A stretch of 40,285 bases of DNA from Anaerolineales bacterium (GTDB lineage: Bacteria; Chloroflexota; Anaerolineae; Anaerolineales; RBG-16-64-43), in NCBI GenBank assembly GCA_016932475.1, contig JAFGCU010000127.1, positions 1-40,285 of the forward strand, in the 5' to 3' direction. Made by a program: the position numbers and the translations under genes. The notes beneath the pieces were generated by a model. It did not search any database. It saw nothing but the letters and a program-made list of their open reading frames with translations, and was not told the origin of the DNA. This document shows, in pieces, positions 1-28,040 of the stretch; the stretch's first letter is position 1, and each line of letters starts with the position of its first letter.

Positions 1-155
1 ATGGGCGGCCTTTTTCTCCCCTCCCCATTCTGGGGAGAGGATTTTTCCTGATGGGCGGCCTTTTTCTCCCCTCCCCATTCTGGGGAGGGAATTTTTCCTG
101 ATGGGCAGCCTTTTTCTCCCCTCCCCATTCTGGGGAGGGGTCGGGGGAGGGGTGA
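1..155. repeat. Tandem array of a 50-bp GC palindromic element
   Basis: Three consecutive copies start at 1, 51 and 101 with a 50-bp period. Each contains the small palindrome CTCCCCATTCTGGGGAG. Copies 1 and 2 differ at two positions near 38-41. The third continues into a GGGGTCGGGGGAGGGGT tail that ends at the 3' end of the DUF559 gene. The window begins inside or at the edge of the array, so its full extent is unknown. A further, nearly identical copy lies at 798-849 on the other side of the gene, making a direct repeat of roughly 68 bp around it. There are no unique spacers, so this is not a CRISPR array. Confidence 0.9.
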
Positions 156-160
156 GTTCG

Positions 161-544
161 CTATCGCTTCTGTAATTCCGCGCACACAACAGCCAATTCC
201 GTAATTACACCCTCGATATTGCTCATCACTCGAGAATTTGAAAATCGAAGCACGCGCAATCCCATTGCCTTCAAGAACTCATCGCGTTCTGAATCCATTC
301 CTTTTTGGGATTCATGTACTCCCCCGTCAATTTCCACAACCAATCGCAACGAATGGCAATAAAAATCCACAATGAAAGGCCCGATCACAGCCTGTCTTCG
401 GAAATGCAATCCGCGAAATCGATGCGCCCGTAGGCCGTTCCATACGACTCGTTCCGATTTCGTCATGGCACGACGAAACACCTTCGAGCGTTCGATCTTT
501 TCCCGGCTTGTTTTCCTTGAAAAAAGAATTTGATGATCATCCAT
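161..544 (-). CDS. DUF559 domain protein, Vsr/PD-(D/E)XK nuclease-like
   Basis: This is a 127-residue protein of the DUF559 family, a single-domain fold related to the very-short-patch repair endonuclease. Visible hallmarks are the basic segment RAHRFRGLHFRRQ, then IVDFYC, then VEIDGGVH, giving the spaced acidic residues (D, then ExD) plus a His expected for this fold, and LRVLRFSN near the C-terminus. The family is often annotated as an endonuclease-like protein, but its biological role is poorly defined. I chose the ATG at 544, preceded by a GGGGGG tract, over an upstream TTG at 556. The gene stands alone, and its 3' end runs directly into the left repeat array while another array lies upstream. 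Its A+T content is higher than that of the neighbouring genes, which suggests a laterally moving unit. Nuclease activity is inferred, not shown. Confidence 0.85.
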   Translation of the reverse strand: MDDHQILFSRKTSREKIERSKVFRRAMTKSERVVWNGLRAHRFRGLHFRRQAVIGPFIVDFYCHSLRLVVEIDGGVHESQKGMDSERDEFLKAMGLRVLRFSNSRVMSNIEGVITELAVVCAELQKR

Positions 545-583
545 ATATCCCCCCAAGTGGTGAAACCCTTTCAGCTTGCCTAT

Positions 584-849
584 CCTTACCCTTCCCTGAC
601 CCTCCCCAGGGTGGGGAGGGAAAAAAATTGTGTTTGCTCCTCACCCCTCCCTGACCCTCCCCAGGGTGGGGAGGGAAAAAAATTGTGTTTGCTCCTCACC
701 CCTCCCTAACCCTCCCCAGGGTGGGGAGAGAATATTTATTGCATTCGATCCTTACTCTTCCCTAACCCTCTCCAGGATGGGGAGGGAATTTTTCCTGATG
801 GGCGGCCTTTTTCTCCCCTCCCCATTCTGGGGAGGGGTCGGGGGAGGGG
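584..849. repeat. Tandem array of 55-bp palindromic elements
   Basis: Four units start at about 584, 639, 694 and 750 (period 55, 55, 56). Each contains a palindrome of the type CCCTCCCCAGGGTGGGGAGGG followed by an A/T-rich spacer. The array then passes into a fifth unit at 798-849 that is nearly identical to the 50-bp units at 1-155. The array ends exactly where the stop codon of the histidine kinase gene begins (850-852). It fills almost the whole interval between the DUF559 gene and the kinase. Transcripts in either direction would fold into a series of strong hairpins, so it probably also terminates transcription of the kinase gene. Confidence 0.9.
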
Positions 850-3800
850 TCAGGACTGGATTTCCCGCGGCAGCGCCAGGAAGAAAGTGCTGCCCTGCCC
901 CAGTTTGCTTTCGAACCACACCTTGCCCGCGTGCCACTCGGCGACGCTTTTTACGATCGCCAGGCCCAGCCCCCATGCCGGATGCTCCGGATCGTCGCGC
1001 GCGCTTCCGCGGAAAAATTTTTCAAATATGCGCGGCTGATCCGCCGGGGCAATCCCGGTCCCGCTGTCTTTGACCGCGACGACGACCGTATCGGCCGCGA
1101 GCTCGACGCCGACCTCGACCGTGCCGCCGGGGCGGTTGAACCGGATCGCATTCTCGATCAGGTTGCCGAGGGCGCGCTCGAGAAGCGAGGAGTCGGCCGG
1201 GATGGCGGGCAGCGTTTCCGGTATTTGGATGCGGATCTTGACCCCGGCCGCCGCCGCCTCCGGTTTAAGTTCCTCCACTACCTGGGAAACAACGATTGCC
1301 AGCTTCACCGGAGCAAGGCGGACCTCCGCACCGCTTTCGACCCGGCCTAAATCGAGAAGATCCTTGACCAGGCGGTTCATCTGCTGGGCGGAGAGGCGGA
1401 TCCGGCGCGCATATTCCTGCTGGGCCGGGTTGAGCGGGCCGAGCATTCCGATCATGTGCACCAGGCCCTCCATCATCGTCAACGGCCGGCGCAGATCGTG
1501 GCTGACGGTGTGAACGAACTCGGATTTCAACTCATCCAGCTGGCGGAAGGAAGTCACGTCCTGCAGCACGCACACCTGCCAGACCCCCGCCCCGTCGGCG
1601 CTGCGCACGCTGCGCACCACACCCTGCAACCGCCGGCCTTCGGCTCCTGCAAATTCAAGGTTGCGCGGCTGAATCGCGCTCTCCATCAGGAAGGCCGTCA
1701 GCTCCGCCTGGGTGATGCTCTCCGCGACCGGCCGGCCGGGGCCGAGGAAATGGGAACCCAGCATGGCCTCCGCGGTGGGATTGACATACTGCACCCGGTC
1801 TTCCGAATCCACAACCAGCACGCCCTCCGGGATCGCCTCCAGAATGGCGGCCAACCGCCCGCGCTCATTCTCGGTGCCTTCCAGCAGGCGCGCATTGGTG
1901 ACCGCCAGGGAGGCTTGGTTTGCGAACCCGGCCAGAAGGTCGAGCATCCCGACCTCGAATGCCTGCGGTCCTTGGAAGGCCGCGCACAGAGCGCCGTATA
2001 ACCCGCTGGCGCCCGCGATCCGGACGACCACCAGCGCGCCGATCGCGCCGGAAAGCTCGTCGAAGATTCCCTCGTCGGCGCCCGAATTGCGATTCGCCGT
2101 CCAGGGAGCCGGCCGGCCCTCATTCTGATGGGATTGTACGAGCGCGAGAATCCGTTCGTCGATCACCTCCAGCGCCCCGCCCACGCCGCCGATATGCGGA
2201 TTGCCGGCTGGGAACGGACCGCGCAGCGAGGGCGCAAGGACAACCCGCACCCCGTCCGCCCCGGTCGCCGTCTGGACGCTGCGCAGCAGGATCTCCATCG
2301 ACCGGCTCATATCCAGGTCGGATGTCATCCCCTGAACCGTTTCCAAAAGCAGTTCCTGATCGCGGATCTGCCGCCGCAGATTGCGACGCATGGATTCCAG
2401 GGATTTCCCGAGCCGTCCGATTTCGTCCTGGCCCTCGACCGTCACCATCCGCTCCAGGTCGCCGGCGGCTATCAAGCCGGCCGATTCGGCCAGCCGCCGC
2501 AACGGGAGGGTGATCTGCTGGGCGATGAACAGCGCCAGCGCCTCGATCAGGAGCGCCATGATCAGCGCGAACAGCCCGACGTGCAGCCCGGTTTCCAGAG
2601 CGGCGCGGAACGCGAAGGCTTCCGGCACGCGGATGCCGATTTTCCAATCCGGATATTGCAGCGGCAGCAGGTAGGAGAGCCGGGTCCCGCCGCCCGGCAT
2701 CGTGCCGATGAACCATTCGCCGCCGTCGGCGTCCATTTCCGGGAGCCCTTTCTCGCTCCACGGTTCGGCATTGGATGGGTACAGCACCCGGTTCGTGTCG
2801 TCGAGGAAGACCCCCTGCCCGCCCTTCAGCGAGCGGAAGGCGGCCGGGATCGCCTTGAGCAACGGATTCGTTTCCAGCGACGTCCGTCCGACGAGCGCCC
2901 CGCGCACCTTCTGTTCCGAATCCCAAACCGGCTGGGTGAACGATATCCAGGTCCTGCCGTTTTCATCGGGCGGCAGCCAGCCCTCCCAGGCGATTCCTCG
3001 CAGGGCAAGCGAGCAGCCCTGGGCCTCTTCGACCGTCTGGCAGAAAGGATCGGCGCCCGGGGGAAACGCGGCGGTGATCGATCCGGCGGGGGATAAGAAA
3101 GCGATCTGTTCGAAAAACGGCGGCCGGCTTAAATGGGCGCCGAGGAACTCGGCGATCCCGTCGCCGTCGATCGTATTTTCCGGCAGGCTGCTGCCCATCG
3201 CTTCCAGCAGGGTATGACCCGTGGTCAGCGCAACCGGCAGTTCGGTCCGGGCGGTCTTCGCGACCCCGAGCATTTCCTGGCGCAGCGTGAGCCGGGCCTG
3301 GCTGCGGGCTTCCACAACCACGATCGCGGTCAGGGCCGCGGCCATGAAGGAGATCGGCAGGATCAGCCACAGGCTGACCTTCCAGGCCAGCGACCGGTCG
3401 TACCGCGTGCGGCGGAGCTGCTTGGGCGAAGAGCCGACGGATGGAACCGCCAGCCGGATCAGTTCGACGACCACCGCGCCCGCCAGCCCTTCGATCAGAA
3501 GAGCAGGCAGAAATCCGGGGATACGCCCGAGCGCGTAATCGAACAGTGTGATCGGGTCTCCGCGCGCGGAGCCGAGCTCGCTGCCGAAGCGAAGCAGGAT
3601 AAGGGACAGGCTCCCCGCCAGCGCCGCGCCCCACGGCCGGCGCAGGAGGGAAAAGAACCTCCCGGCATAATCCTGGCGGACCAGCTCGGCGATCACCCAA
3701 CCCGCCAACGCATATTCCAGGATCGTGGCGGCCTGGTGGGTATCGAACACGGAGCGCACCGCGCCGACGACCAGCCCGGCCGCGAGCGCGGGCATCCGGC

Positions 3801-10297: not shown

Positions 10298-10335
10298 GAT
10301 GCTCTCCGGGATCGAGGGGCCAACCCAAGATCGGT

Positions 10336-10582
10336 CGTCATTCCCGCGCGGGGGTAAGCGGGAATCCATATTGTCCTCGAAAAGTCACTGGATCGCCGCG
10401 TAGAGCACCCCTGCTCCGCGGGGGCAGGCGCGGGGATGACGTTTTTTTTTCGTCATTCCCGCGCGTACTTAGCGGGAATCCATACCGCACTCGAAAAAGT
10501 CCCTGGATCCCCGCGTAGAGCACCCCTGCTCCGCGGGGGCAGGCGCGGGGATGACGCAATGTCGGATGCGGGCGGGGATGAC
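10336..10582. repeat. Two 106-bp near-identical repeats plus a partial third
   Basis: Copy 1 spans 10336-10441 and copy 2 spans 10451-10556, separated by a T-run. Both begin CGTCATTCCCGCGCG and end GGGGATGACG, so each is itself a large palindrome with terminal inverted repeats; inside lies the block CGCGTAGAGCACCCCTGCTC. A partial third end (GCGGGGATGACG) lies at about 10571-10582, nine bases before the end of cmk. The array occupies nearly the whole gap between cmk and the lipoprotein gene. ATTCCCGCG/CGCGGGGATGAC repeats are known as dispersed elements in many bacteria. Confidence 0.9.
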
Positions 10583-11275: not shown

Positions 11276-13062
11276 TCCACGGCTCCTTCCTCCGGCACGA
11301 GGATATCCGACCGCACCCACAGGATCACCCGCTCCCGCTCCGCCGGCCCTTCCCGGAAGAGCAGCCAGCGGATGAGATCCGGCGGCCAGCCGTACCACGC
11401 CCGCCGTTCAGTGTACCCGAATGCCTGCCCACGGTACACCACCGTCAACCGGGGGGCGACAACCGCGCCGTCCACCTCGACGTATGGCGCGATCAGCATC
11501 GGCGGCACGGCCAGCATATCGACCGCGGCCGCATATTCGGCCGCCTTATACGTCAGCAGTTCCCAGCCAAGCGCCGATTCCTCCGGCAGTTGGATCGCCA
11601 CGGCCAATTCGTCCTTCACCCCGGTCTGCCACTCGGAGATTTGCACTAAAGCGCCGTGCAGGCGAAGCACGTCCGCGGCGGTCGTTTCCGTCTGCCAAAG
11701 TTCGTTCGCGGAGGCGCGCCGCGCATGGGTCGCATTCCAACCCGCGCCGGCCTGGGTGACGGCGAGTATGGAAAACCACGCCAGCGCCAGTCCGGTCAGC
11801 GAGGTCCGGGCTGCGATCTGCAAATCCTCGGAAAACAGGAGCCCCGGGAATATCCCGCCCAGGAATCCCGCCAGCGCCAGGCCCAGGTTCAGCCACGAAC
11901 CGGTGTGGACGTAGGCTGCGAGGTTAAAGACGGCGAAAGCGGCAAGCGCGCAGATGGCGCCGCCCTGCGCCGCGACGAAAACCGGCCGCTCCCCAAGCAC
12001 GGATGATTCCAGAACCAAACGCAGCGCCCGCGCGCCGAGGACGAGCAGCGGCAGGATCACCCAGACCGATTCGCCGGGGAAGGCCGCGGGCCGGAGGAGC
12101 ACCCAGGCCGCCGCGACGGCGGCGAAGACAGCCCAGAACCGATCTTCCGCGGCGAACAATCCCTTCGAAAGCAGGATCAATCCGATTATGCCGAAAACAA
12201 GCGCAATCGGTTCGTATCCGAGGAAGAGCAGGATGAATTCGCCGATCCGCGGCCAGCCGGAAAAGAACGAGGCCAGCCAGCCGCTTAGGCCGGCCGCCAG
12301 CGCGCCGATCCCGCGCGGGAAGAAAAACAGCCCCGTGCTTCCGGCGGCGGCACCGAGGATAAACCCCGCGATCGCGGCGGGCATTTGTAGGGGCGAACGG
12401 CTGTCCGTCCGTTCGATTGGCGGACGGGTGTCGGCCCGTTCAATTGGCGGACGGCCGTCCGCAATCTCCGTATTGGTTTGGGTACTCCCGGATTGAAAAA
12501 TCCGTTCCGCCAGCGGGACGATCGCCGCGATGGCCAATCCGCTCCACCCAACCGGACCGGACGCAACCGCCAGGCCGAGCGCAAGGCCGCCGGAGAGCGG
12601 TTGTGGATTATTCGAGCGCATGTGGAAAATGACGAAGCCCGCCGCCAGGAAACCCAGCGCCGTCCCGCCCGCCATCGTGGAGGCGATCCACAGCGCGGGG
12701 GAAAGCGCGAGGAGCAGCGCCAGCAGGAACGATTCGATCCGCCCGCACGAGGGGCGCAGGAGGAGCGGCAGCAGGACCGCGAGCGCGCCGGCCGCGGCCG
12801 GGAGCACACGCGGCGCCCAATGCGACGCCCCGGAGATGAAAAGCACGCCGGCGGTCAGCGAGGCGTACAAGGCGCTGGACGATCCGGCCGCGCCGCCGCG
12901 GAGCAGATCCATCGCGCCCCAGGCTTCGGCGGCTTCGGTTCCGGAGAGCGGCGCGCTTTCCAGGGCAGTCAGGCGCAGGAGCAGTGCGGCGAGGAATAAT
13001 CCCGCGTACAGGGACGGTTCGTGCTTTTCGAGGAACCTCTCGAGCGCATCGCGTACTTTCAT
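11272..13062 (-). CDS. Polytopic membrane protein, GT-C (GT39)-like
   Basis: This 596-residue protein has about a dozen hydrophobic segments and a soluble C-terminal part. The N-terminal layout (cytosolic MKVRDALERFLEKHEPS, a first helix, then a short outer loop ESAPLSGTEAAEAWGAMDLL) resembles GT-C enzymes such as PMT/ArnT, which transfer sugars from polyprenyl-phosphate carriers outside the membrane. The usual acidic pair in the first outer loop is reduced to a single TEAAE-type acid, so activity is uncertain. It is joined to the DUF2298 gene upstream and cmk downstream by ATGA overlaps. Around residues 200-225 it carries an in-frame 27-bp repeat block (see 12387-12461). Function as a glycosyltransferase is inferred mainly from fold-like topology and context. 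Confidence 0.7.
   Translation of the reverse strand: MKVRDALERFLEKHEPSLYAGLFLAALLLRLTALESAPLSGTEAAEAWGAMDLLRGGAAGSSSALYASLTAGVLFISGASHWAPRVLPAAAGALAVLLPLLLRPSCGRIESFLLALLLALSPALWIASTMAGGTALGFLAAGFVIFHMRSNNPQPLSGGLALGLAVASGPVGWSGLAIAAIVPLAERIFQSGSTQTNTEIADGRPPIERADTRPPIERTDSRSPLQMPAAIAGFILGAAAGSTGLFFFPRGIGALAAGLSGWLASFFSGWPRIGEFILLFLGYEPIALVFGIIGLILLSKGLFAAEDRFWAVFAAVAAAWVLLRPAAFPGESVWVILPLLVLGARALRLVLESSVLGERPVFVAAQGGAICALAAFAVFNLAAYVHTGSWLNLGLALAGFLGGIFPGLLFSEDLQIAARTSLTGLALAWFSILAVTQAGAGWNATHARRASANELWQTETTAADVLRLHGALVQISEWQTGVKDELAVAIQLPEESALGWELLTYKAAEYAAAVDMLAVPPMLIAPYVEVDGAVVAPRLTVVYRGQAFGYTERRAWYGWPPDLIRWLLFREGPAERERVILWVRSDILVPEEGAVE
12387..12461 (-). repeat. In-frame 27-bp tandem repeat inside a CDS
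   Basis: On the coding (minus) strand this block holds about 2.7 copies of a 27-bp unit encoding DGRPPIERA, DTRPPIERT and DSRSPL. One end reads GTAGGGGCGAACGGC, the start of a palindromic intergenic repeat type that is common in Anaerolineae genomes (recalled, not searched). The block lies in a hydrophilic loop between membrane segments, which would explain why it is tolerated. It may be copy-number variable. Confidence 0.8.
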
Positions 13063-15672: not shown

Positions 15673-15784
15673 CCATCCTCTCCCACCTCCCCCTCGGTCC
15701 CCCTCCTCCCTCCCCGTATTACGGGGAGGGAGGAGGGGGATGTCCCGAGCAGCGCGAGGGACAGGGGGAGGCGGGAGAGGATGG
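15673..15784. repeat. Composite palindrome filling an operon gap
   Basis: Outer arms start CCATCCTCTCCC at 15673 and end GGGAGAGGATGG at 15784. Inside are two further hairpins: one with CCCTCCTCCCTCCCCG against CGGGGAGGGAGGAGGG, and one TGTCCC...GGGACA around 15741-15764. The whole would fold as a three-way junction. It begins at the base next to the TGA of the 1764-residue gene (15785-15787) and ends at the Shine-Dalgarno of the DUF2298 gene. Confidence 0.85.
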
Positions 15785-27873: not shown

Positions 27874-28040
27874 TACCCCTCCCCATCCCTCCCCATCCTG
27901 GGGAGGGTGGCCGAAGGCCGGGAGGGGTTGGGTAATAGACAATATTTAATCCCGAACAGATAAAATTATTACGAACACATAACTTACCCCTCCCCATCCC
28001 TCCCCATCCTGGGGAGGGTGGCCGAAGGCCGGGAGGGGTC
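27874..28040. repeat. Two copies of a GC palindromic element
   Basis: Copies at about 27874-27937 and 27985-28040 share TACCCCTCCCCATCCCTCCC, a central CATCCTGGGGAGGG part and GGCCGAAGGCCGGGAGGGGT, which includes the small hairpin GGCCGAAGGCC. They belong to the same C/G-rich class as the elements at 1-155 and 584-849. The second copy ends at the TGA of tlyA (28039-28041). The rest of the region between lepA and tlyA (27741-28038) holds the lepA promoter and hairpin and no gene. Confidence 0.9.

Follow-up and report, generated by a model that had tools for sequence, protein, structure and literature searches.

DUF559 nuclease genes flanked by polarized palindromic repeats in bacteria: candidates for minimal mobile cassettes

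We analyzed a 40,285-nt stretch of DNA, hereafter the window, on contig JAFGCU010000127.1 of assembly GCA_016932475.1 from an Anaerolineales bacterium (Chloroflexota). Near its start lies a small gene of the DUF559 family (PF04480), which encodes a nuclease-like protein and is enclosed by tandem arrays of a short palindromic repeat. We find that in many bacteria such repeats cluster at DUF559 genes, that they bracket the genes as matched inverted copies, and that whole cassettes, as well as one single repeat unit, are present in some genomes and missing at the corresponding sites of others. It is therefore rather probable that a broad superfamily of short polarized palindromic repeats has its cognate partners in the DUF559 genes and forms minimal mobile cassettes with them. 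Our best reading is a system similar to the repetitive extragenic palindromic (REP) sequences and their REP-associated tyrosine transposases (RAYT), built on a PD-(D/E)XK nuclease of the Vsr/EDxHD type and not on an HUH transposase.

Association of the repeats with DUF559 genes

A scan with one genome per species yielded 80 DUF559 loci, which span about a dozen phyla and were taken with flanks of 10 kb. Hairpins in which a pyrimidine arm precedes a purine arm occurred at 6.66 per kb within 100 bp of the gene, at 2.68 per kb between 100 and 200 bp and at 0.07–0.10 per kb beyond 1 kb, i.e., the density next to the gene is 70–90 times that farther away. The mirror-image hairpins (purine arm first), used as a control, reached 0.13 per kb in the first 100 bp. 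At least one hairpin within 330 bp was found in 60 of the 67 loci with full flanks.

For Chloroflexota and Pseudomonadota the test loci were picked by PF04480 score alone. A hairpin was present at 22 of 29 chloroflexotal DUF559 loci versus 0 of 21 loci of Y1 transposases, and at 30 of 30 pseudomonadotal DUF559 loci versus 1 of 28 loci of the classical Vsr family (PF03852; Fisher p = 1e-15). The mirror-image hairpins were raised too in the Chloroflexota set (1.38 per kb), a count that probably stems from the stretches between the tandem units. Among named plasmid records all seven DUF559 genes inspected first have hairpins, as do Neisseria gonorrhoeae, Klebsiella and Sinorhizobium meliloti pSymB, three of six additional cases selected for diversity. 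The N. gonorrhoeae gene (L298), which corresponds to the solved structure 3hrl, has a series of hairpin units alternating along the 800 bp downstream, at a period of about 281 bp.

The co-occurrence of gene and repeat was then counted in samples of 300 Chloroflexota and 249 Pseudomonadota genomes. Strong DUF559 matches were found in 27 of 31 repeat-rich Chloroflexota genera versus 34 of 142 others (odds ratio (OR) 21, p = 6e-11), and at the family level in 19 of 21 versus 20 of 56 (OR 17, p = 1e-5). For the Pseudomonadota, where genomes were counted without correction for phylogeny, the numbers were 53 of 62 versus 20 of 187 (OR 49, p = 6e-28), with a median repeat count of 30 versus 0. The first-pass annotation of the window had named two outcomes that would refute it, a lack of enrichment of the repeats beside DUF559 genes and repeats equally common in genomes without the family. 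Neither occurred: the enrichment is strong, and repeats are far more numerous in genomes and genera that have DUF559.

Genome G552, which with 155 copies is the richest in repeats among the Pseudomonadota genomes that lack an intact DUF559 gene, retains a C-terminal piece of DUF559; a tag with half a hairpin comes next and then an interruption. It gave the one convincing relic nuclease among 19 repeat-rich genomes without strong DUF559; the other weak matches had no repeats nearby.

Several Anaerolineales contigs (L030, L033, L066, L100) carry more than one DUF559 copy a few kilobases apart, and one genome (G211) contains 13 DUF559 genes. Many metagenome contigs, among them L021, L036, L039, L064, L071, L078 and L097, end less than about 100 bp from a DUF559 gene, a pattern to be expected if the repeats beside the gene interrupt assembly.

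Structure of the repeat unit

The unit of about 40 bp consists of a one-sided pyrimidine-rich tag (e.g., CCCTCACCCC) and a hairpin with a short variable loop, the 5′ arm being pyrimidine and the 3′ arm purine. It is often found as an inverted dimer of about 100 bp, and the layout of tag plus hairpin recurs with lineage-specific sequences. In two genomes of genus g5 the dispersed copies, about 41 nt long, read CCCTCACCCC-TNN-CCCCTCTCCC-NNN-GGGAGAGGGG with a constant stem and a varying loop, and the sequence immediately outside is unrelated. The dispersed form in genome G101 is an inverted dimer of 99–111 bp with the tags outermost, present in 12 of 15 clusters. Copies are found in both orientations and at long distances from the gene, which is why a reading of the repeat as an RNA element or terminator was rejected.

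Around DUF559 genes the copies nearest the gene are inverted relative to each other in 33 of 40 scorable loci, 26 with the tags pointing inward and 7 outward. The two sides of a single locus carry copies far more alike than those of different loci (median 6-mer Jaccard index 0.227 versus 0.069; in a permutation test the observed mean was 0.253 and the permutation maximum 0.096). Between Variovorax and Ramlibacter orthologs both flanks change together, the loop from TCT to TCC and the arm from CCTT to CCCT.

Presence and absence of cassettes and single units

The DUF559 gene together with its matched inverted units forms a cassette of about 0.5–0.65 kb, and syntenic sites are found with and without it. 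In genus g49 the 655-bp cassette of G101 (three units, gene, two units) is missing at the syntenic site of G246, where unrelated DNA is found. The flanks are 94–97% identical; on the left the homology ends at the outer tag's first base, on the right within the last dimer. No DUF559 gene occurs in G246, which has only 34 intact repeats versus 501 in G101, and the cassette of G069 lies in a genomic context different from that of G101. In the hpa operon of Deinococcus the cassette is inserted at three different junctions (D. proteolyticus together with a decayed copy in D. wulumuqiensis; sp. NW-56; D. aetherius) and is missing in D. deserti, D. ficus, D. radiophilus and D. radiodurans. The D. proteolyticus cassette is bounded by inverted ends of about 52 bp, i.e., terminal inverted repeats as in insertion sequences. 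In Sphingobium RAC03 the cassette interrupts an operon whose counterparts in two relatives are continuous. The empty sites of Deinococcus and Sphingobium carry no repeat. Gain or loss of the whole cassette, a comparison suggested by the first-pass annotation, is thus seen in other genera, not for the window's own copy, for which a close strain was not available. Apart from DUF559 no gene is common to the cassettes examined; the nuclease is their sole protein, and neither a DDE nor an HUH transposase is present.

A single 42-bp unit of Variovorax paradoxus (L086, 18977–19018) is missing in three orthologs, which have 33 bp in place of 75 and thus an exact empty site. The empty allele of L083 includes GGCCGGGGTG, a sequence similar to the tag of the V. 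paradoxus unit; this is possibly microhomology or a target preference, in one case only. Between G101 and G246 clean empty sites of dimers are obscured by a different short repeat at the same G246 junctions. At the junctions of L176 (G246 C7) that match L150 5332 and 9619, the short tandem repeat CATAGAACATAGAG stands where G101 has repeats of the DUF559 type, as though the two repeats had a common preference or tolerance for these intergenic sites.

The locus in the window and its genome

The features of the window locus are collected in Table 1. The minus-strand open reading frame 161–556 matches the PF04480 profile with E = 1.7e-35 (121.6 bits, cut-off 20.6), so that the first-pass assignment of the gene as DUF559 nuclease-like is confirmed. 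The same annotation had described tandem units of period 50 and 55 on both sides, a shared CTCCCC...GGGGAG palindrome and a direct repeat of about 68 bp formed by the outer copies, all of which we recovered. Tandem Repeats Finder reports a 50-bp array at 1–139 (2.8 copies) and a 55-bp array at 583–788 (3.7 copies), both arrays share the palindrome CCCTCCCCA-NNN-TGGGGAGGG, and the 68-bp repeat is contained in a pair of direct copies (69–156 and 766–853, 93% identity over 88 nt). The units are polarized, the left copy 118–153 and the right copies 588–786 all directing their tags at the gene. The left side is incomplete, and the dimer at the right has the layout of the 99–111-bp dimers of G101. 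Window positions 1–1000 had no match in Rfam, and PADLOC returned weak partial matches only (DpdF, mREase_II).

Table 1. Position of the DUF559 gene and of the repeats of its type in the window
Feature	Position	Strand	Remarks
DUF559 (PF04480) gene, Vsr/EDxHD-like PD-(D/E)XK nuclease	161..544	minus	127 aa, ATG at 544; open reading frame to 556 with TTG
Left array, three 50-bp units	1..153	minus	Hairpins 17-41, 69-89, 118-140; array cut by the contig end at 1
Left-array tag TCGGGGGAGGGGT	141-153		Directed at the DUF559 gene
Right array, four 55-bp units	583..788	plus	Hairpins 600-620, 655-675, about 710-730, 766-786
Right-array 5′ tag (ACCCYTCCCTRA)			On each unit, directed at the DUF559 gene
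Inverted dimer of about 103 bp (tag-hairpin ... hairpin-tag)	749..851		Hairpins 766-786 and 815-837; ends the right side
Two gene-less copies, palindrome type as at the DUF559 gene	27875..28039		Hairpins 27887-27907 and 27998-28018, 111 bp apart

The genome to which the window belongs comprises 3.65 Mb in 129 contigs, and repeats were counted in it by pattern searches. CTCCCCN{3,9}GGGGAG occurs at 60 sites versus 5 for the reversed control pattern, and the palindrome is therefore more frequent than expected by chance. There are five DUF559 genes, about 40% identical to that of the window, and 5 of 5 DUF559 genes are bracketed on both sides, within roughly 100–200 bp, by arrays of palindromes with G/C runs. 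These five arrays differ in sequence (CCCTCCCC in the window; TCCCCCCATCCC, CCTCCTCCCCTTCCC, CTCCCCCTTCCCC and CCTCCCCCGTTAGCC). Another contig also breaks off within the palindrome array adjoining its DUF559 gene. An alignment of five sequences had no stretch conserved enough for the collection scan, and an alignment of three was used.

The protein

In 51 relatives R24, E31, W35, D60, F61, E71, G74, H77, D84 and R87 are invariant, among them the active-site residues E31, D60, E71 and H77. An AlphaFold model (pLDDT 84.9) matches in Foldseek 3hrl and the catalytic domain of the homing endonuclease I-Bth0305I (3r3p, 5e-4), followed by PvuRts1I, AbaSI and Vsr; sequence profiles likewise match 3hrl (1e-35) and 3r3p (3.9e-5). 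The DUF559 domain spans residues 21–124 of the 127 aa. PF03852 (Vsr) is not among the Pfam hits of the window protein, and its similarity to Vsr is weak and confined to the fold. Because structure-model and profile matches agree, we assign the protein as a predicted nuclease of the Vsr/EDxHD group that consists of the catalytic domain only.

Comparison with known systems

REP sequences carry a GTAG/GTRG head beside the palindrome, and the RAYT gene is flanked by two inverted repeats (PMC2817692). The DUF559 repeats share with REP/REPIN and RAYT the short polarized tag beside a hairpin palindrome, many dispersed extragenic copies, inverted dimers, a gene between two matched inverted copies and orphan repeats in gene-less relatives. 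The likeness to REP elements noticed in the first-pass annotation therefore holds in anatomy. The enzyme, however, is a PD-(D/E)XK nuclease in place of a Y1 HUH protein (TnpA-REP), the tag is pyrimidine-rich (CCYCACCCC-like, CCCTCACCCC-like) and not GTAG, the arms are pure pyrimidine and purine, the repeats extend over about 12 phyla, and Y1 loci are without them. Since enzyme and tag differ, the DUF559 system is not a member of the REP/RAYT group.

With I-Bth0305I and Escherichia coli Vsr (1vsr, 1cw0) the protein shares the catalytic fold and the active-site residues. In contrast to these, it is a catalytic domain only, lies in no intron and is bracketed by inverted palindromes, and classical Vsr genes lack the repeats. 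Like IS200/IS605 elements and miniature inverted-repeat transposable elements, the system is a minimal one-protein cassette with subterminal hairpins and non-autonomous derivatives of about 100 bp, but it has no HUH or DDE transposase and no recognized target-site duplication. Caulobacter VsrA belongs to the same protein family and has been studied as a mismatch-repair-like enzyme; a text search of that paper found no mention of flanking palindromes (PMC12907096). The literature on DUF559, COG2852 and PF04480, covered mostly through titles and abstracts and with few subscription journals, yielded nothing on flanking repeats; an earlier description is possible, and some repeats of this type may have been given local names before within individual genera, e.g., RIME in rhizobia.

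Interpretation

We infer that the repeat spreads because the nuclease binds it and cuts it. The gene with its matched inverted copies would be a minimal mobile cassette with the nuclease as sole protein, and dispersed single units and inverted dimers of about 100 bp would be its non-autonomous derivatives. Most likely the nuclease would recognize the tag and the hairpin, probably extruded or single-stranded, and nick there; repair or replication of the cut could then copy or insert the unit. More tentatively, and with less confidence than in the partnership itself, we suggest that the cassettes could be a class of minimal mobile elements over most bacterial phyla, moving themselves and their repeats by a PD-(D/E)XK nuclease without a known transposase, and that many orphan palindromic repeats could be their derivatives.

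Several observations weigh against a mobile partnership of gene and repeat. Repeat-rich genomes without DUF559 exist (G027, G029, G037, G479 and others); several of the Chloroflexota exceptions (genera g49, g12, g57) have congeners that carry the gene. Under the criteria used, 7 of the 67 full-flank loci have no hairpins, and neither have E. coli H240, Pseudomonas aeruginosa pPALO11 and Pseudanabaena among the six diversity-chosen cases. By eye no target-site duplication was recognized at the Deinococcus and Sphingobium junctions, and in the Comamonadaceae the DUF559 gene is vertically inherited at one site. The correlation between repeat and protein similarity is weak (Mantel r 0.14, range 0.11–0.17); for Chloroflexota-by-Pseudomonadota pairs it is 0.17 (p = 0.01).

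The main rival is a free-standing homing endonuclease whose targets are the palindromes, the gene having invaded existing arrays by double-strand-break repair and the repeats having been dispersed otherwise. The match to the EDxHD catalytic domain of I-Bth0305I in profile and fold and the empty counterparts of cassette sites speak for it. We nevertheless regard it as unlikely, as repeat abundance follows the gene across genera, the flanks are matched inverted pairs and not two halves of one interrupted target, and the empty sites of Deinococcus and Sphingobium are free of the repeat. Moreover, EDxHD homing enzymes couple an extended DNA-binding region to the nuclease domain (PMC3943268), and this region, typical of phage homing enzymes, is absent from the 127-aa protein. 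Still less likely is a nuclease that acts as a passenger or retention factor, as TnpB does for IS200/605, with an unlinked transposase moving the palindromic ends. Strand joining is indeed not evident from any cassette boundary, and we know of no transposase that is a PD-(D/E)XK protein of 127 aa without partners; yet the cassettes share no second gene, G029 and G037 are repeat-rich without Y1 transposases, and the Y1 loci have no repeats.

That DUF559 is a host repair enzyme of the very short patch (VSP) type, the palindromes being terminators or regulatory sites, appears very improbable to us. Hairpins could stop transcription, and for the Caulobacter protein VsrA, proposed as a VSP-like repair enzyme, a link to 5-methylcytosine and the DNA damage response is described (PMC12907096). 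A repair function, however, fits poorly with hundreds of dispersed copies away from the gene, with tandem arrays, inverted pairs and the presence/absence of mobile cassettes, and with classical Vsr genes that lack the repeats. The repeats are also G/C-rich and intergenic, as would be expected if such hairpins were common everywhere, but this explanation is practically negligible: in the set of 80 loci the mirror-image hairpins show no enrichment, the Vsr and Y1 control genes are negative, and the reversed-pattern controls speak against it as well. The mirror-image and gene-family controls led us to reject a compositional artifact.

To our knowledge no partner protein has so far been identified for REP-like repeats without a GTAG/CGTC tag, and DUF559 is a candidate family for this role. 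The results suggest a widespread, so far unnamed kind of mobile repeat whose enzyme differs from that of the one known example. They offer a reason for the abundance of the family annotated as “DUF559/endonuclease domain-containing protein” and, in the flanking repeats, a probable explanation for the breaks of assemblies at DUF559 genes. The family also occurs in tractable organisms (S. meliloti, Variovorax, Deinococcus, Azospirillum), which together with the defined anatomy of the unit makes cutting and mobility directly testable.

Other repeats in the window

Three further repeats were seen. Two 115-bp tandem copies at 10335–10556 belong to a different palindromic repeat that looks dispersed (CGTCATTCCCGCG...GCGGGAATCC); its sequence is unrelated to that of the DUF559 repeats. 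Positions 12392–12462 hold a tandem repeat of 27 bp (GGCGGACGGCTGTCCGCC...) that is itself palindromic. At 15698–15740 there is a long pyrimidine/purine hairpin, TCCCCCTCCTCCCTCCCC-GTATTAC-GGGGAGGGAGGAGGGGGA, with no DUF559 gene adjoining.
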